Assembly (NCBI GenBank): GCA_016217935.1
Contig: JACRFJ010000024.1
Location: 1 to 44,152, forward strand
Direction: 5' to 3'
Origin: Candidatus Kaiserbacteria bacterium
GTDB taxonomy: Bacteria > Patescibacteriota > Minisyncoccia > Phycocordibacterales > UBA2100
Length of the DNA stretch: 44,152 nt
Made by a program: the position numbers and the translations under genes. Under the pieces are notes generated by a model, which made no database searches, was not told where the DNA came from, and saw only the letters and a list, made by a program, of their open reading frames with translations. Shown here piece by piece: positions 1,296-32,746 of this stretch. How positions within the stretch are numbered: the stretch's first letter is position 1; each line of letters begins with the position of its first letter.

Positions 1296-2072
1296 ATGGG
1301 AAAAATAACGATCAAAAATCGAAAAGGGCAGAAGATGGTGGTGGTCGTCGATCATGCCGAGCATCCGAAAGGTCTTGCGTTCGTGATGCATGGACTAGGG
1401 AGTTCCAAAGATTCTCCCCGCATCCAGCTCATCGCGCAGACGTTCAACGAAAAAGGATTTACCGCAGTACGCTTCGACACGACGAATACGTTCGGGGAGA
1501 GCGACGGCAACTACGAAGATGCAACGATTACGAATTACTACGAAGATCTCGAAGATGCCATTGCATGGGCGAAGAATCAACCGTGGCACCAGGAGCCATA
1601 TATCCTCGCCGGCAGCAGTCTCGGCGGGATTTGTGTAACTCTGTATGCAGAGGCTCATCCACAAGAAGTTCGCGCGCTCGCGCCTATTGCCCCGGTCATC
1701 TCCGGAGCACTCCGCATCGAGGCGAGCAATCGACGAGATCCGGGCCGCTTCGAGCGCTGGAAAGCGGCGGGATACGAAGATGAGCAAAGCGAGAAGGTGC
1801 CAGGTTTGATGAAGCGTTTGAAATATAGTCACGTTGAAGACAGCATGCAGTACGACACGTTGCCCGGAGCGAAGAAACTCACGATGCCCGTCCTCCTCAT
1901 CGTAGGAAGTGAAGACGACATTACGCCGCCCGATCACGTGCAAAAGCTTTTCGATGCAATTCCCGCGGGCAAGAAAGAGCTCCATGTGATCAAGGGGATG
2001 GGACACGCGTTTAAAGAGGAGTATTTCCCGCAGGTGCGCGCGATCTTCGAGCGCTGGATCGATACCGTCTAG
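1296..2072 (+). CDS. alpha/beta-hydrolase (serine esterase/peptidase-like)
   Basis: A 258-residue alpha/beta-hydrolase fold enzyme. The nucleophile elbow is GSSLGG with Ser108; the likely acid is Asp207 or Asp208 in GSEDD and the base His237 in GMGHAF; HG at 32-33 belongs to the oxyanion loop. All triad members are present, so it should be active on an ester or amide, but the substrate cannot be read from sequence. There is no signal peptide, so it is cytoplasmic. The ATG at 1296 is chosen because AGGA lies 9 nt upstream; an in-frame TTG at 1260 would add 12 residues with no supporting signal. It ends 18 nt before pyrF, which has its own -10 element. Confidence 0.85.
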   Translation: MGKITIKNRKGQKMVVVVDHAEHPKGLAFVMHGLGSSKDSPRIQLIAQTFNEKGFTAVRFDTTNTFGESDGNYEDATITNYYEDLEDAIAWAKNQPWHQEPYILAGSSLGGICVTLYAEAHPQEVRALAPIAPVISGALRIEASNRRDPGRFERWKAAGYEDEQSEKVPGLMKRLKYSHVEDSMQYDTLPGAKKLTMPVLLIVGSEDDITPPDHVQKLFDAIPAGKKELHVIKGMGHAFKEEYFPQVRAIFERWIDTV

Positions 2073-5791: not shown

Positions 5792-6442
5792 ATGAGAACG
5801 GTGAGTCAGGCAGTAGAGAGAATACTTGAGAAAACTCCTTTTTTGGCAGAAGTAGTGGCTGAGGGCGTGGGCAACAATGCTGCAATTGCACGCAAACTTC
5901 GTCCGCACGTGGAAGAATATCTTTTCGAAAATGTATCAGAGTCATCGATATCGATGGCACTGCACCGCGTATCCAAAAGACGAGGGGTACAACCGTACGG
6001 TACAAAACTTCTAAAACTGATGAAGGATATTACCGTGCGTTCAAACCTCATAGAATTCACGTGCCCCAACTCACTCGCGAGTGTTGAACTGTTTGAAGCA
6101 CTCTCAAAAAGCGCGAAGCGGCATAAAGATGCATTCCTCAATTACTCGCGTGGTCTGCATGAATCGATTCTCATTGTGAGTCGCGACCTCGAGGGTGAGG
6201 TCGCGGCGATACTCAAAGGCCAGAAAGGAATCACGCGCAAAGACGGTCTCTCGGCAATTACGATGCGCTTGCCCGAGAACTCACTTACAGTGCCCGGAGT
6301 GTACTACCCAATCTTGAAAGCAATCGCGCTCGAAGGCATCAGCCTCGTCGAAGTGATGTCTGTTCTTACTGAATTCAGCATTATTTTCGAAGACCGAGAC
6401 GTCGATCGCGCGTTTTCCGTGATTAAGCGAATCACTTCCTAG
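5792..6442 (+). CDS. putative HTH plus ACT-domain protein
   Basis: 216 residues, cytoplasmic. Residues 15-65 form a helical region resembling a winged helix (NNAAIARKLRPHV, SSISMALHRVSKRRG). Residues 154-214 match the pattern of an ACT domain as found in aspartokinases: AITMRLPENSLTVPGVYYPILKAIALEGISLVEVMS, then FSIIFEDRDVDRAFSVI. ACT domains usually sense small ligands such as amino acids, so a ligand-responsive regulator is plausible, but this is inference and no target is known. The 3' end overlaps the 3' end of the convergent trxB by 4 nt. Confidence 0.6.
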   Translation: MRTVSQAVERILEKTPFLAEVVAEGVGNNAAIARKLRPHVEEYLFENVSESSISMALHRVSKRRGVQPYGTKLLKLMKDITVRSNLIEFTCPNSLASVELFEALSKSAKRHKDAFLNYSRGLHESILIVSRDLEGEVAAILKGQKGITRKDGLSAITMRLPENSLTVPGVYYPILKAIALEGISLVEVMSVLTEFSIIFEDRDVDRAFSVIKRITS

Positions 6443-7371
6443 GCCTCAGACTTGTTTTTCCGAATAGACATATAGATGTCTTCAAGTGCTTTCACTGCGT
6501 CGCCTGCGGCGATGTTGTTTTGGTGGTAGAGACCATCAGTGATGTCACCCGCTGCCCAGACACGCGGATGCGATGCACGCTGCGTCTTTGGATCAACCTT
6601 GATTTGCTTCACTGCGTTGAGCTCGAGGGCATCGCCGAGCCAGCCGCTGTTGGGCAACAGTCCAATTTCTACGAAAATGCCGGCGACCGGAAGGAGCGAT
6701 TCAATGCCTTGTGCGTCCTTCCATTTGAGTCCGGTCACGAATTTTTCACCCACCACTTCGGAAGGAGTAGCGTTGGTGATGATGCGCATATTCGCGTGAG
6801 ATTTTGCTGCTGCGATAGTGATTTCATCTGCGCGAAAATCTTCGGTGCGATTGAGGAGCGTCACACTCTTGCAGTAAGCGAGGAGCTGGAGCGCAGTCTC
6901 GAACGCTGCATTGCCCCCACCGATGACCGCTACATCCTGGCCCGCAAAGAGCGGTCCGTCGCACGAGGCACAGTAGGTGAGGCCCTTGTTGTCGAATTCC
7001 GCTGCTCCAGGAACCTCGAGCTTTCGACGCTGCGCACCCGTGGTCACGAGCGCGGTGAGAGCCGAGTAGACGTCCCCTTTTTTAGTCATGACTTCTACGT
7101 GATCATCGAAGGTCTTCAGCGAGATAGCTTGCGACGGCGAGACAATCTGGAGCACGTCACCCTTGTATGCTTCGACGTGTTTTTTGAGGTTGTCGGCCAG
7201 GTCAGCACCCATGATCGCAGGCGTGCCGATCCAATTCTGGATTTCGGATGAGACCGCACTTTGTCCTCCCCATTCACTCGTGAGGAAAATGGTTTTCAGC
7301 CTCTTGCGCGCAGCATAGACCGCCGCTGAGGTGCCTGCGGGCCCACCGCCGATGATAATCAAATCGTGCAT
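6439..7371 (-). CDS. trxB: thioredoxin-disulfide reductase-like flavoprotein
   Basis: A 310-residue low-Mr thioredoxin reductase fold. FAD-binding GGGPAG lies at 8-13, the redox-active C134-x-x-C137 in YCASCDG, a second nucleotide-binding GGGNAAFE at 151-158, and the FAD-binding AAGDITD at 273-279. The usual NADPH 2'-phosphate motif HRRxxxRA is changed to NRTEDFRA (174-181), keeping only the second and last Arg, so coenzyme preference may be shifted. It would reduce thioredoxin or glutaredoxin-like proteins; the window encodes a glutaredoxin and a TlpA-like protein further on. It lies downstream of ftsZ on the same strand, separated by a structured 94-nt spacer. Confidence 0.88.
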   Translation of the reverse strand: MHDLIIIGGGPAGTSAAVYAARKRLKTIFLTSEWGGQSAVSSEIQNWIGTPAIMGADLADNLKKHVEAYKGDVLQIVSPSQAISLKTFDDHVEVMTKKGDVYSALTALVTTGAQRRKLEVPGAAEFDNKGLTYCASCDGPLFAGQDVAVIGGGNAAFETALQLLAYCKSVTLLNRTEDFRADEITIAAAKSHANMRIITNATPSEVVGEKFVTGLKWKDAQGIESLLPVAGIFVEIGLLPNSGWLGDALELNAVKQIKVDPKTQRASHPRVWAAGDITDGLYHQNNIAAGDAVKALEDIYMSIRKNKSEA

Positions 7372-27212: not shown

Positions 27213-27842
27213 ATGCGGAGAATGTCCCTGGCTTTGGCGCTTTCATCGATACTTATCGCGATGCCGTTTGCGGTCTCTGCCGCAACGGTGCCGGTTTCGA
27301 TCGTCGACGATGCGTACGTTGATGACTATGTGACCGTGCAAGCGGGGGGTACTGTCGTGTGGAGAAATTCAGGGATGATGAACCACACGGTGACTTCTGA
27401 CAACAATTCGTTCAGTAGCGGCACCATTACGCCTGGCGGGCAGTACAGCTATACCTTCAACACACCGGGTACGTATACGTATCACTGTAATTTCCACAGC
27501 AACATGCACGGCACGGTTGTGGTGACTGGCTCTAATCCAAATCCCAACCCAAACCCGAATCCGAACCCAAATCCCAACCCGAATCCAAATCCGTACCCGC
27601 AGCAGCAATACTACTGGTGCGGGAGCTATTACTCGTTCTATCCGTGCTACAACGATAATTACAATTACGGCTACTCGTACCACCCGTACGATTATTATTA
27701 TCCGTATTCATATTCTTATTCGTACTATTATCCCTATACATATAGCTACGGATACAATAATAGTTACAATTATGAATACAACTATTACGACCCATATTCC
27801 TATTCATACTACTCGCCGTATTCCTACGATTGGTGGTATTAA
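27213..27842 (+). CDS. secreted blue-copper cupredoxin with NP-repeat and tyrosine-rich tail
   Basis: 209 residues in four parts: signal peptide (1-23); cupredoxin domain (25-106) with all type-1 copper ligands visible (His58 in MMNHTV, Cys92, His95 and Met98 in YHCNFHSNMHG); about nine Asn-Pro repeats (108-126); and a low-complexity tail (127-209) with 36 Tyr in about 80 residues, mixed with Ser, Asn, Pro and a C134/C143 pair. The domain should bind copper and transfer electrons outside the cell. Tyr-rich tails can cross-link through dityrosine or bind surfaces; pairing one with a copper domain is unusual, and its function is inference. The repeats are encoded by varied codons. Confidence 0.82.
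   Translation: MRRMSLALALSSILIAMPFAVSAATVPVSIVDDAYVDDYVTVQAGGTVVWRNSGMMNHTVTSDNNSFSSGTITPGGQYSYTFNTPGTYTYHCNFHSNMHGTVVVTGSNPNPNPNPNPNPNPNPNPNPYPQQQYYWCGSYYSFYPCYNDNYNYGYSYHPYDYYYPYSYSYSYYYPYTYSYGYNNSYNYEYNYYDPYSYSYYSPYSYDWWY
27560..27840 (+). repeat. low-complexity coding repeats (NP repeat, then Y-rich)
   Basis: AAYCCN hexamers encode the Asn-Pro run and TAY-rich triplets the Tyr tail. It is A+T-richer than the flanks and prone to length change. Confidence 0.6.
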
Positions 27843-28360: not shown

Positions 28361-28540
28361 CTATTTTCCGCATCCACAGTCACAGGTACCGTCATCATTC
28401 TTATGTTCGTGATTACACATAGTGCACACTTTTGTTTTGTCCATCTTTGTATCGTCCACCATTCCTTTGCACCCGCAGACGCAGGCACCATCCTTTTCTT
28501 TATGCTCATGATTGCACGTTGAGCATGTTGTTCCTTGCAT
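28361..28540 (-). CDS. small Cys/His-rich protein with two metal-binding repeats
   Basis: 59 residues made of two copies of C-x2-C-N-H-E-H-K-x2-D-G-x-C-x-C-G-C (residues 6-24 and 39-57), giving 10 Cys and 4 His. Each copy has enough ligands for one or two Zn or Cu ions, so it is either a tandem zinc-knuckle protein or a metallothionein-like buffer. There is no signal peptide, so it is cytoplasmic. The ATG at 28540 is preferred over an in-frame TTG (28549). It is the most downstream member of a minus-strand run of thiol and metal genes, but 113 nt separate it from the next one. Confidence 0.7.
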   Translation of the reverse strand: MQGTTCSTCNHEHKEKDGACVCGCKGMVDDTKMDKTKVCTMCNHEHKNDDGTCDCGCGK

Positions 28541-28662
28541 AGTATTCAATCCGTAATTATTTTGATAATTCTCGACCTTATAACGGCCAGCGTAGATCCC
28601 CGCAGATAAACCGCTACCCCGGTGCCCAAAATGACAAGGTCAAAGTGGTTTGCAGGCATATG

Positions 28663-29157
28663 CTATTTACCAATCCGCGCGGAGTTGAACAACACACCAA
28701 ATGTTTTACACCATGTGAGAATGTACGGGTAATCAGTCGGATTGACGCCGTCGGGAATTTCGTAATTGATGTTGCCCTCAGTCGCCTTTACTTTTCCAAG
28801 ATTCACGAATTCGTGGGCGTCGATGTCTTTCGCCAAGTATACGTAGATGTCCGGGCCGTTTATGGTCTTGAAGTTCTCGTATCGCACATACTGCTTCCGG
28901 TCAGCGCTCACGATGCGTACGGTACCGCTCGCCGGATGTCCTAATGTCCCCGTAACTGGGGTAGGTGGCTTTTCTGCGGCAGTCGGAGTCGTGATCGGAG
29001 ACGGAGTATTACCTTGCGTCGGTTTAACTGTCTCTTGGGCAGATTGCGGAAGCGCGTCATTCACACGGATGTTGCGGAAGAGAGGAGAGATTGCCCAATA
29101 ACCGAAACCGCCTAAGACAAGGATAATAACGCCGATGAGAATGTACGTAGCCTTCAT
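28663..29157 (-). CDS. membrane-anchored DM13-domain protein
   Basis: 164 residues: one N-terminal transmembrane helix (5-23), a Pro/Thr-rich linker (35-72), and a DM13 domain (75-162) with GTVRIVSADRKQYVRYENFKTINGPDIYVYLAKD, then EGNINYEIPDG and YILTWCKTFGVLFNSARI. The conserved Cys150 in the WCK block is the proposed redox-active residue of the DM13 family, which is predicted to take part in extracellular electron transfer or disulfide chemistry. It starts 15 nt after the glutaredoxin gene and is probably co-transcribed with it. Confidence 0.82.
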   Translation of the reverse strand: MKATYILIGVIILVLGGFGYWAISPLFRNIRVNDALPQSAQETVKPTQGNTPSPITTPTAAEKPPTPVTGTLGHPASGTVRIVSADRKQYVRYENFKTINGPDIYVYLAKDIDAHEFVNLGKVKATEGNINYEIPDGVNPTDYPYILTWCKTFGVLFNSARIGK

Positions 29158-29172: not shown

Positions 29173-29415
29173 TTACGCAGCAATACCCAATTTTTCTACC
29201 ACTTCATCACGGTCGAAACCGACCGTTGCTTTTCCGTCTATAACGATAACGGGTACGCCAAGCTGTCCCGTCAAATCGATTATCTCCTTTCGTTTTGCCG
29301 CGTCGCTCGCGACATCATGTTCGGTATACTCGATTTGTTTCTCCGCAAAGAATTCTTTCGCTTCCTTGCAGAAGTGACAGGTCGGCGTGCTGTATATAGC
29401 AACGGTTTTTGACAT
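29173..29415 (-). CDS. glutaredoxin/NrdH-like thiol reductant
   Basis: 80 residues, a complete thioredoxin-fold mini-protein. The active site is C13-H-F-C16, the cis-proline loop is GVPVIVI (53-59), and the C terminus has VGFDRDEVVEKLG. It would reduce disulfides in the cytoplasm. The HFC dipeptide is not the usual CPYC or CVQC, so I do not assign a subclass; reduction by the TrxB-like enzyme at 6439 is plausible. It probably forms a two-gene unit with the DM13 protein. Confidence 0.88.
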   Translation of the reverse strand: MSKTVAIYSTPTCHFCKEAKEFFAEKQIEYTEHDVASDAAKRKEIIDLTGQLGVPVIVIDGKATVGFDRDEVVEKLGIAA

Positions 29416-29460: not shown

Positions 29461-30060
29461 TTATTGAGTCTTTTTCATCATTGCATCGTCTTTCTTCATC
29501 GAGTCACCCTCTATCATGGCACCGTCCTTTTTCATCATCATTGCTTTGGACATCATTGCGCGTGTCAGTGGACCATAGAATCCAGCGGCATTAAGTCCAA
29601 CTGATTTCTGGTACTTTGCAAGTGCCGCTTTCGTAAGTGGTCCGAAGTATCCTTTTGCAACGCCTGCCGGGATCATCAGATATCCATGTTCCTCCAAAAA
29701 GGTCTGGAGTGTCATTACTGCATCTCCCCGAGAGCCTTCCGTGAGATCGTCCGACATCATAGTGTCTGTATGCATCATACTGTCACTTCCCATAGCATCC
29801 TTTTTCATCATCGTGTCACCTGACATCGTTGCGCCGTCCTTCTTCATCATTTTGTCCTTCTCCATCATGATCTGCGCGTTGAGTGCCTCAACTTGCTTCA
29901 TCAACTCCATAACCTTGGCGTCTTTCTGCATCACGCTATCAGTTCCCATTGCATCTTTTTTCATCATCGTGTCACCCGACATTTCCATCGCCTGCGCTGC
30001 GCCTGCAAACGATGCGGAAGTCGCGAGCACAAGTCCGAGAACCATCATTTTCTTTTTCAT
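29461..30060 (-). CDS. secreted Met/Lys/Asp-repeat protein with peptidoglycan-binding domain
   Basis: 199 residues: signal peptide (1-24, ending AQA), a repeat region (25-104) with at least three copies of DTMMKKDAMG-x-DS, a peptidoglycan_binding_1 domain (106-170: LTEGSRGDAVMTLQTFLEEHGYL, GYFGPLTKAALAKYQKSVGL, GFYGPLTRAMM), and a second Met-rich tail. Such Met clusters (MxKDx-type) are typical of periplasmic copper or silver binding; I infer metal capture at the cell wall. Expression is likely controlled: a 20-bp palindromic operator sits at the transcription start. Confidence 0.75.
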   Translation of the reverse strand: MKKKMMVLGLVLATSASFAGAAQAMEMSGDTMMKKDAMGTDSVMQKDAKVMELMKQVEALNAQIMMEKDKMMKKDGATMSGDTMMKKDAMGSDSMMHTDTMMSDDLTEGSRGDAVMTLQTFLEEHGYLMIPAGVAKGYFGPLTKAALAKYQKSVGLNAAGFYGPLTRAMMSKAMMMKKDGAMIEGDSMKKDDAMMKKTQ

Positions 30061-30133: not shown

Positions 30134-31345
30134 CTATCCAAATGTAAAGGTATATGCTTTGAGACCAGGGGTGTTGATAATCACTTCAAGCGTGTGTTCG
30201 CCATAGTTTGTGCCCTGTACGAGCGTGTACAATTTATTTTCTTTGATCGTTTGATGTCCGGTAATCTTGCCGTCAAGCATGATCGTGATGTCGACCGGCG
30301 CATCCGCACTCGCTACGAAATACACATTTTTTGCATTGTACTTGTAGGTGAACTTTCCTCCTGAGCCTACGTTTTCTGCATATTCGTTCTTGAAGTTCCA
30401 ATTGCCTCCAAGATACAATGTATTTGCCTCTATTGTGGAAGGGATGGAAAGCTGCTGCGAACCAGTTACGCCCTGCGTTCCGTTTCCGAGATATTCGTTG
30501 CGCGAAGCTCCAAAATACGCCTCGCGACTCTGGACTTTTCCGGAATCAAAGGTTATGACGTTGTTCGGATTTGCTATATCGCTTGAAATAGTAGCACTTG
30601 TTCCGAGTACCTGCGCACGCTCCTTGAGAGCTGCCTGTATGAGGCGTTCTGTCTCGTCATAACCACCCTCACCGATGTGATCATGCACGATGTAGCCGTC
30701 GATGTCGATGAGATACTCGCGCGGCCAGAATTGGTTTTCGTACGTCTGCCAGGTCGCGTAATTATTGTCCTGCACGACGGGATACTTGATGCCCGCCTCT
30801 TTCACCGCGTTCGCGACATTGTCGTAGACTTTTTCAAAATCAAACTCTGGCGTATGAACTCCTACGATCACGAATCCCTGATCCTTATATTTCTGATACC
30901 ACGCATTGAGATAGGGAGTGGTGCGCTTGCAATTGATACAACTGTATGTCCAGAAATCGAGCAATACTACCTTTTTGCCGATTAGGTCTTTGAGCTTGAA
31001 AGGTTCGGTGTTGATAAATCCGCCGCCCGGCGTTATCTCGCGTGCTGATTTGTATTTTTTTGCTTTTTCGGCTTTGCTCATGATCCTTGCATTTGTTGCG
31101 ACCGATGCAGAAGCGGATGGCTTAGAAGATGCAGCGATTTCTTCTTTTGCTTTTGCCGATAGAGTTCCGTCGGGCGAAACATCAGGCACGGAATCTACAT
31201 CTGCGGGATTAGTTGGTGCATCTGTAAGTACATCTCCTTTTACGCCCGCTTCGGGGCGCACTTTGCCCAACTGCAAATACCAGATTGATCCGGCAATAAG
31301 GACAAGGACGACTCCGAGCAGAATGTTTTTGCCGAGGATATTCAT
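30134..31345 (-). CDS. membrane-anchored TlpA/DipZ-like thioredoxin protein
   Basis: 403 residues: an N-terminal membrane anchor (7-24), a low-complexity linker (40-100), a TlpA-type thioredoxin domain (about 105-245) with active site C136-I-N-C139 in FWTYSCINCKRTTPYLN and the DipZ hallmark VVQDNNYATWQTYENQFWPREYLID, and a C-terminal jelly-roll-like domain (about 275-400) also found in DipZ. It should sit outside the membrane and exchange electrons with CcdA, whose gene overlaps it by 4 nt (ATGA). Together the two genes equal a split DipZ. Confidence 0.88.
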   Translation of the reverse strand: MNILGKNILLGVVLVLIAGSIWYLQLGKVRPEAGVKGDVLTDAPTNPADVDSVPDVSPDGTLSAKAKEEIAASSKPSASASVATNARIMSKAEKAKKYKSAREITPGGGFINTEPFKLKDLIGKKVVLLDFWTYSCINCKRTTPYLNAWYQKYKDQGFVIVGVHTPEFDFEKVYDNVANAVKEAGIKYPVVQDNNYATWQTYENQFWPREYLIDIDGYIVHDHIGEGGYDETERLIQAALKERAQVLGTSATISSDIANPNNVITFDSGKVQSREAYFGASRNEYLGNGTQGVTGSQQLSIPSTIEANTLYLGGNWNFKNEYAENVGSGGKFTYKYNAKNVYFVASADAPVDITIMLDGKITGHQTIKENKLYTLVQGTNYGEHTLEVIINTPGLKAYTFTFG

Positions 31346-32115
31346 GATTCCTTGTGCTCAATACTGGTTTGTGCCAAATATGACAGAAATCCAGGTATTA
31401 TCGGTAATACGCAGGGAGAAAGAAACGATGCAAGGCCCGCAAAAAGCGCTACGGCAAAATTTGTAATGGAAAGAGAAGAGATACTGCCACCGGCACTCGT
31501 TCCTAAATTGAGTGAGAGAAGTACATTCGTGAGCAACTGAAAGTTAGCAATCTTGCTCAACTCTCCGACAAATATCAATACTCCGATTGCGACCAACAGC
31601 ACGCCGAATACATATTCCACATAGCGCAACCACGGCCCTGCCTTATTGATAAACTCCTGCGCTTGATTTGTAAACGCACCCACAATTAAAAATGGCACGC
31701 CGATGCCGAGCGTGTATGCAAAAAGGAGAAGGAATGCGCTCGTTGCGTTGGTAGCGGCAAGTACCAGGATTGCGCCGAGGGCGGCAGATACGCACGGCGT
31801 CCAGCCGACGGCAAAGGCGGCACCAAAGACAAAAGAAGTCACATATTTTGAGCCGAATTTCATCTTCACGGCCATTTTGTGGTCGCGCTTCAAAAATTTC
31901 GGCGTAAATAATCCGAGTACGAAAAGCCCAAAGAGAATGATAATAACGCCACCAATTCTTCCGAGCCACGCCTGCACTGCGTACGAAGAATGAGCAAGCA
32001 CAGTCTGGAGAAGTACACCGACGAGAGAAAAAATTATCGAAAAACCGAGCACAAAGAAAACGCTGCTCAAAAATACGCTCCAATCTTTTTTTACAGGCAT
32101 CACTTCTTGATCCAT
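31342..32115 (-). CDS. ccdA: CcdA-family thiol electron transporter, apparently circularly permuted
   Basis: Moves electrons from cytoplasmic thioredoxin across the membrane to exterior thiol proteins. The 257 residues contain both CcdA cysteine motifs but in reversed order. The protein begins with what is normally TM2 (FLSSVFFVLGFSIIFSLVGVLL, 15-36), then WTPC with Cys108 (normally TM4), AYTLGIGVPFLIVGA (133-147) and the TM6 region (165-184). After a ~28-residue linker it ends with the normal TM1, FAGLASFLSPCVLPIIPGFLSYL (225-247, Cys235). The break matches the canonical TM1-TM2 loop. It has its own -35/-10 promoter and operator and is coupled to the TlpA-like gene. Confidence 0.88.
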   Translation of the reverse strand: MDQEVMPVKKDWSVFLSSVFFVLGFSIIFSLVGVLLQTVLAHSSYAVQAWLGRIGGVIIILFGLFVLGLFTPKFLKRDHKMAVKMKFGSKYVTSFVFGAAFAVGWTPCVSAALGAILVLAATNATSAFLLLFAYTLGIGVPFLIVGAFTNQAQEFINKAGPWLRYVEYVFGVLLVAIGVLIFVGELSKIANFQLLTNVLLSLNLGTSAGGSISSLSITNFAVALFAGLASFLSPCVLPIIPGFLSYLAQTSIEHKES

Positions 32116-32178: not shown

Positions 32179-32544
32179 CTACCAATTTCTGTCACTGTAG
32201 AATCGAGTGCCGACTTTTGCAAGCAACATTCCAACAAGTACGACAACGAGCCACACGTCGAGCGTGTCGGTGTAGCCCTGGTACATAATGCCGAGAATGA
32301 GAAGCCCGGCGCCAACGAGAAATGCGGAGCGGCCAGCCAGCATACGATGCTCGCTTTCGCGCTCATCTCCTGCGGCTTCACGTAACATGAAGGTCGCAAA
32401 CAGTCCGAACACGACGACCGCAGCGCCGAGAAGTGTCATATGTGCCATGGTCGGCATCCAAAAATGCAAAGGATTGAGAATAAGTATCAACAGGAGTACA
32501 AGAACCCCCGCTGTGACTGTTTGTTTAAGATCGTTTTTTGTCAT
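32179..32544 (-). CDS. small multi-pass membrane protein co-encoded with an XRE regulator
   Basis: 121 residues with four hydrophobic helices (about 9-27, 34-55, 71-88, 94-110) and a charged cytoplasmic loop REAAGDERESEHRMLAGRS (55-73). Small membrane proteins of this shape (DUF2178-like) often accompany XRE-type repressors. It may sense the membrane or metal state and relay it to the regulator; that is inference. Its start lies inside the regulator gene (20-nt overlap), so the two are translationally coupled. Confidence 0.65.
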   Translation of the reverse strand: MTKNDLKQTVTAGVLVLLLILILNPLHFWMPTMAHMTLLGAAVVVFGLFATFMLREAAGDERESEHRMLAGRSAFLVGAGLLILGIMYQGYTDTLDVWLVVVLVGMLLAKVGTRFYSDRNW

Positions 32545-32746
32545 ATGAAATCTTGAAAATTTTCTCTACAGGCATTTTAAAGAATTGTGCAATTTTTATA
32601 GCCAGAAGAACCGAAGGGGTATAGTGTCCCTTTTCAATAGCAATGATTGTCTGACGACTAACTGTAACATGCGCAGCAAAATCTTCTTGCGTTATACCGC
32701 TCTCCGTTCTCAATCTGTTTACCTCGTTCGTAATATATTCACTCAT
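32525..32746 (-). CDS. XRE-family helix-turn-helix regulator
   Basis: 73 residues, almost entirely an XRE/Cro HTH domain (10-64): NEVNRLRTESGITQEDFAAHVTVSRQTIIAIEKGHYTPSVLLAIKIAQFF. The recognition helix is VSRQTIIAIEK. There is no effector domain, so any sensing must come from the partner membrane protein or from another factor. It is the obvious candidate to bind the 20-bp sites at 30095, 32144 and 32786, one of which overlaps its own -35, implying autoregulation. Confidence 0.85.
   Translation of the reverse strand: MSEYITNEVNRLRTESGITQEDFAAHVTVSRQTIIAIEKGHYTPSVLLAIKIAQFFKMPVEKIFKISYDKKRS

Follow-up and report, generated by a model that had tools for sequence, protein, structure and literature searches.

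Natural circular permutation of the six-helix membrane protein CcdA, traced by sequence comparison

Circular permutation is well known among soluble proteins. For helical membrane proteins, it was proposed in 2015 that VKOR and DsbB, four-helix thiol oxidoreductases, are related by circular permutation, and this was called the first report of its kind; the connection between these distant families is hypothetical and its direction unknown (PMC4555120). The author of a 2020 review of helical membrane proteins was aware of no circular permutation observed in a membrane protein (PMC7162841). CcdA, a membrane protein of six helices (PMC3884852), hands electrons received from thioredoxin in the cytoplasm to a thioredoxin-like protein on the extracytoplasmic side (PMC3842002, PMC3884852). 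The reducing power that crosses the bacterial membrane in this way passes from dithiol to disulfide. In DipZ of Mycobacterium (2HYX, 5CYY), CcdA, a thioredoxin and a C-terminal domain are joined in one chain, which carries the SCINC motif (PMC6107167).

Here we report a ccdA gene of rearranged helix order on a 44,152-nucleotide stretch of DNA from Candidatus Kaiserbacteria, hereafter the window; the gene occurs in a group of tiny uncultured bacteria. The encoded protein resembles ordinary CcdA (PF02683; 5VKV) in its six helices, two catalytic cysteine motifs, size, and pairing with an extracytoplasmic thioredoxin gene, but it runs from TM2 to TM6 and then to TM1, whereas 5VKV runs from TM1 to TM6, and it has an extra linker of about 15-20 residues. 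The partner gene product is a homolog of the extracytoplasmic part of DipZ, the SCINC site being common to both; unlike the single chain of DipZ, the system in the window consists of two separate overlapping genes, and its membrane part is permuted. The nearest precedent is the VKOR/DsbB pair, also a membrane thiol-disulfide protein with re-threaded helices. In contrast to that pair, the permutation of CcdA is seen directly, at 48-59% identity, with a direction, a single origin and an unchanged gene partner.

No description of a permuted CcdA or DsbD was found in the open-access literature, and its unreported status is thus unproven. We consider it likely that the gene represents a single-origin natural permutation of a six-helix membrane protein that functions in cells, its termini having moved across the membrane with the helices left in place. 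If true, such a permutation would for the first time have been seen between close homologs, beyond folds alone, and it would offer a rare natural test of how freely membrane proteins can be re-threaded. Given the close identity, clear direction, single origin and unchanged partner, it would become testable how the insertion order, end position and connectivity of a membrane protein affect its folding and its electron transfer. In other membrane families, too, matches recorded as "partial" may conceal permutations of this kind.

Layout of the permuted gene and its homology to ordinary CcdA

The permuted ccdA (31342..32115, minus strand) starts with ATG and encodes 257 amino acids, with the helix order TM2-TM3-TM4-TM5-TM6-linker-TM1, as delineated from the open reading frame and its translation, Pfam, and the alignment with 5VKV. 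All of its parts lie on the minus strand. The new N-terminus (residues 1-13, 32077..32115) has its counterpart in the cytoplasmic TM1-TM2 loop of ordinary CcdA, and the TM2-TM6 core that follows (residues 14-201, 31513..32076) corresponds in blastp to ordinary CcdA from TM2 to the C-terminal end. A linker (residues 202-219, 31459..31512), predicted to be periplasmic and mostly without an ordinary counterpart, joins the old C-terminal end to the old N-terminal end and leads into the final helix, TM1 with SPCVLP (residues 220-248, 31372..31458), which matches residues 5-33 of 5VKV and the ordinary relatives. The two predicted catalytic cysteines are Cys108 of GWTPC in TM4 (31792..31794) and Cys235 of SPCVLP in TM1 (31411..31413).

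In a phmmer comparison with CcdA 5VKV, two stretches were aligned in swapped order: residues 220-248 on chain positions 5-33 (i-E 0.0024) and residues 16-194 on positions 41-211 (i-E 1e-26). The same picture emerged in blastp with eight close ordinary CcdAs of the window's phylum. The TM2-6 piece, from residues ~7-14 to 200/201, is 51-60% identical to them, and the TM1 piece, residues 211/223-257, is 55-71% identical to their first helix over matches of 30-42 residues (E 1e-9 to 1e-12). When the protein was rotated at 213/214, the two pieces merged into one alignment of 236-244 residues with 48-59% identity (E 1e-80 to 1e-98) to the same eight proteins. By these alignments the protein in the window is confirmed as a naturally circularly permuted CcdA. 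The TM1-to-TM6 helix order of CcdA/DsbD_TM is absent, TM1 coming last; since all six helices are homologous, we classify the protein as a permuted variant and not as a standard DsbD_TM member. It scores 77.6 bits against the PF02683 (DsbD_TM) profile, over the curated cut-off of 27.1, with a main stretch that places residues 14-181 on profile positions 45-214, i.e. from TM2 onward, and standard annotation recognises only a partial CcdA here.

The first-pass annotation had proposed that the protein starts at TM2 and ends in the SPCVLP helix, and the open reading frame and its translation bear this out: the first helix is TM2 and the final one carries FAGLASFLSPCVLPIIPGFLSYL. It had also placed a linker of about 28 residues behind TM6. 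The linker is present but longer, with about 36 residues (184-219) from the end of TM6 to TM1, of which only some 15-20 are without a counterpart in ordinary CcdA; on the profile of the permuted members, ordinary members end at about position 201 and begin at about 215. The overlap with the partner gene was found as described and comprises four bases (31342-31345). What was described as an intact promoter comes down to a consensus match, and the region holds four such sites where chance alone would give 5.8. This promoter-like sequence, TTGACA-17-TAGTAT at 32150-32122, ends 7 bases ahead of the ccdA ATG, so that a transcript started from it would be nearly leaderless. No hidden second TM1 lies upstream of ccdA, because the frame is open for just three codons before the ATG (open frame 260).

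Recurrence, single origin and selection

With a profile built from six permuted members, we screened sampled genomes from the family (70), order (397), class (384) and phylum (380) of the window, as well as from three further orders. Permuted genes scored 377-496 bits in a single stretch spanning positions ~5 to 256, versus 260 bits for the best ordinary CcdA, which matched in two stretches with TM1 upstream, leaving a clear score gap between the two groups. The permuted gene was detected in 23 genomes, in 21 of them intact (window included), in one with an in-frame stop and in one frameshifted. Those genomes that have a family code represent 17 families, 13 in the order of the window and 4 spread over three further orders of its class; in the 380-genome sample of the phylum, no permuted gene was found outside the class. 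TM1 comes first in all 80 ordinary-order rows, no mixed order was seen, and none of the 21 intact permuted and 80 ordinary-order rows carries TM1 twice, once at each end, or consists of fused copies, as a duplication intermediate would.

Outside the phylum, the search for permuted CcdA covered a plasmid collection and a scan of one genome per species, the latter detecting close relatives only. The scan yielded four full-length relatives with the permuted helix order, at 71-84% identity, named Sungiibacteriota, Taylorbacteria, Paceibacterota and uncultured bacterium. Partial matches were obtained in 301 plasmid records, none covering 80% of the query in the permuted order, and no relative was found in viral contigs. 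The two broken copies differ in kind. In genome G214 (locus L050, ~2042-2046, minus strand), one in-frame TAA in the TM3-TM4 loop divides the gene into a two-helix and a four-helix piece, which may reflect a real split, decay or a sequencing error. In G545 (L152, C12:3000-9390), frameshifts turn the gene into overlapping open reading frames, with the DipZ-type partner downstream intact.

For phylogenetic analysis, all rows were rotated to match the ordinary order, and columns with few residues, such as those of the linker, were removed. The 21 permuted rows formed one clade in a tree of 97 rows (SH-aLRT 100), and in a tree of 67 rows the permuted clade had a support of 100/100 and was present in 100% of bootstrap trees. 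When the 67-row tree was rooted on distant CcdAs, this clade was nested in the close ordinary group, and the distribution of permuted and ordinary order required one change. A single clade nested among ordinary CcdAs implies that the permutation happened once and from the ordinary order, and the permuted order is judged to be derived because the outgroup and 5VKV also have the ordinary order. On these trees, then, the permutation of CcdA arose once, from the ordinary order. As to how, tandem duplication with subsequent trimming of both ends is a guess.

Among pairs of eight permuted members, nonsynonymous differences per site were 0.09-0.23 and synonymous differences 0.69-0.94, the latter near saturation. 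The relocated TM1 segment, with nonsynonymous values of 0.03-0.24, is as constrained as the rest. Judged by these substitution patterns, the intact permuted copies are under strong purifying selection.

Topology, partner gene and predicted electron route

Both cysteine motifs, GWTPC with C108 in TM4 and SPCVLP with C235 in TM1, are kept in all 21 intact permuted members; SPCxLP with its catalytic cysteine stands in the final helix of each, and the spacing between the two cysteines is 127 residues throughout (108 and 235 in the window). No further cysteine is shared in the six-row alignment of permuted members. The new N-terminus (..KKDW or ..KRDW) and C-terminus (..SYLASTAVKK) each represent one half of the ordinary TM1-TM2 loop, of which AYLAGS....KRRDIF is an example, and the ordinary C-terminal end (..ANFELLNRFLLK) continues into the linker. 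The density of Lys plus Arg over 23 rows, including two broken copies with parts missing, was 0.188 in the N-terminus, 0.224 in the TM3-4 loop, 0.138 in the TM5-6 loop and 0.142 in the C-terminus, as compared with 0.011 in the TM2-3 loop, 0.011 in the TM4-5 loop and 0.037 in the linker (184-219). By the positive-inside rule these values fit an ordinary topology with both ends predicted to be cytoplasmic, whereas the termini of ordinary CcdA lie outside, on the extracytoplasmic side. The earlier proposal that the new ends fall in the cytoplasmic TM1-TM2 loop, so that the topology can be kept, thus agrees with both the sequence comparison and the loop charges.

The partner gene (30134..31345, minus strand) encodes a 403-residue protein with a membrane-anchored DipZ-C-type thioredoxin domain, containing SCINC, and a Thioredoxin_10 domain, as assigned by Pfam and by homology to the C-terminal portion of DipZ from mycobacteria (2HYX, E 2.3e-58; 5CYY, E 2.4e-58). 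In 21 of the 22 permuted loci examined (L132-L152 and L006, L003 being a duplicate of L147), the permuted ccdA is directly followed on its own strand by this partner, L151 being the exception. Almost all of the closest ordinary CcdAs are followed by the same DipZ-type partner, and the permuted gene hence occupies the position of its ordinary relatives. The genes upstream of permuted ccdA vary and often include a secreted, CPxC-containing thioredoxin (PF00085 by Pfam in L138). In the window they are, on the minus strand, a small membrane protein (32179..32544), whose homologs precede several ccdA genes of either order, and at the head of the cluster an HTH_3 regulator (32525..32746; Pfam) with homologs in L133 and L147.

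The evidence on the gene, its relatives and its partner also bears on other explanations of the locus. The draft genome is fragmented into 47 contigs, and an assembly or binning error might have fused pieces of two ccdA genes; misassembly, which the first-pass annotation had called unlikely, is excluded because 20 other intact genes from independent assemblies, at 62-84% identity, share the order. These copies emerged from the search for the same helix order in relatives that it had suggested, they bring the total to 17 families, and the cysteine spacing is identical in all intact copies, so that we give such an error next to no chance. It is very improbable that we are dealing with a decaying pseudogene family, of which the copies with an in-frame stop and with frameshifts might be taken as signs, against 21 intact copies under strong purifying selection. 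Equally improbable is a five-helix CcdA fragment (TM2-6) with an unrelated or chance anchor helix at its C-terminus: the main Pfam and 5VKV stretches do span TM2-6 only, but the final helix matches ordinary TM1 at 55-71% identity with E-values of 1e-9 to 1e-12, has SPCxLP with the catalytic cysteine in 21 of 21 members, and is constrained like the rest of the protein.

A true permutation could also have its last helix domain-swapped into a neighbouring subunit, or a changed function. A conserved linker of fixed length could serve swapping, and the structure models leave the packing of the last helix unsettled: the two AlphaFold models built from five eligible sequences have mean pLDDT values of 56.8 and 58.1, too weak to place this helix. 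For both of these low-confidence models the top Foldseek match was 5VKV (probability 1.00; 183-198 columns, mainly TM2-6), at modest E-values of 0.003-0.004, and the VIA-align Z of 4.8 to 5VKV does not stand out from assorted membrane proteins with Z of 4-6. However, the partner gene is the same as that of ordinary CcdA, both cysteines are invariant, and by loop charge the linker both starts and ends on that face of the membrane where the old termini lay; we therefore regard a swap or a changed function as unlikely. The explanation we favour, and hold to be very probable as a whole, is a CcdA permuted once, with helix orientations and partner kept and ordinary CcdA function predicted.

Under this explanation, an ordinary ccdA located beside a DipZ-C-type thioredoxin gene would have been permuted once with its partner retained, TM1 and one catalytic cysteine moving from the front to behind TM6 via a short extracytoplasmic linker. 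As the new ends derive from the former cytoplasmic TM1-TM2 loop, the orientation of each helix could be kept and the Cys108-Cys235 pair could form as usual, preserving the fold. The permuted protein is thus most likely to work like an ordinary CcdA, a prediction drawn from conserved residues and gene context, and the DipZ-C-type partner is the most likely candidate for its electron acceptor. Electrons would pass from a thioredoxin-reductase-like protein to a redoxin in the cytoplasm, for which the nearby glutaredoxin-like protein is a candidate, then to Cys108/Cys235 of the permuted CcdA, and finally to the SCINC site of the partner. The putative donor is encoded by 29173..29415 (minus strand; Pfam) and the putative electron source by 6439..7371 (minus strand), the latter matching TIGR01292 with 246.7 bits, below the curated cut-off of 343.45. 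A glutaredoxin-like protein and a thioredoxin-reductase-like protein, again below the curated cut-off, were each found in 10 of 10 permuted genomes tested, versus a PF00085 thioredoxin match in only six of the ten, several of these being secreted neighbours; we therefore propose a route via the glutaredoxin-like redoxin.

Several further proteins are encoded in the window, namely a secreted DM13 domain protein (28663-29157) near the cluster of redox genes; a secreted protein (29461-30060) with a peptidoglycan-binding domain flanked by Met/Lys/Asp-rich repeats (MMKKDAM); a secreted protein (27213-27842) that looks like a cupredoxin by eye and carries an Asn-Pro repeat as well as a tail very rich in Tyr; and a small Cys-rich open reading frame (28361-28549) with a TTG start and CNHEHK..G.C.CGC repeat units, possibly metal-binding. 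On another contig of the same genome (G000 C17, L002, 376-2127, minus strand) lies a gene for a 583-residue DipZ-like fusion of ordinary helix order, in which AAC replaces SPC and SCSPT occupies the TPC region, and which falls below the DsbD_TM cut-off.
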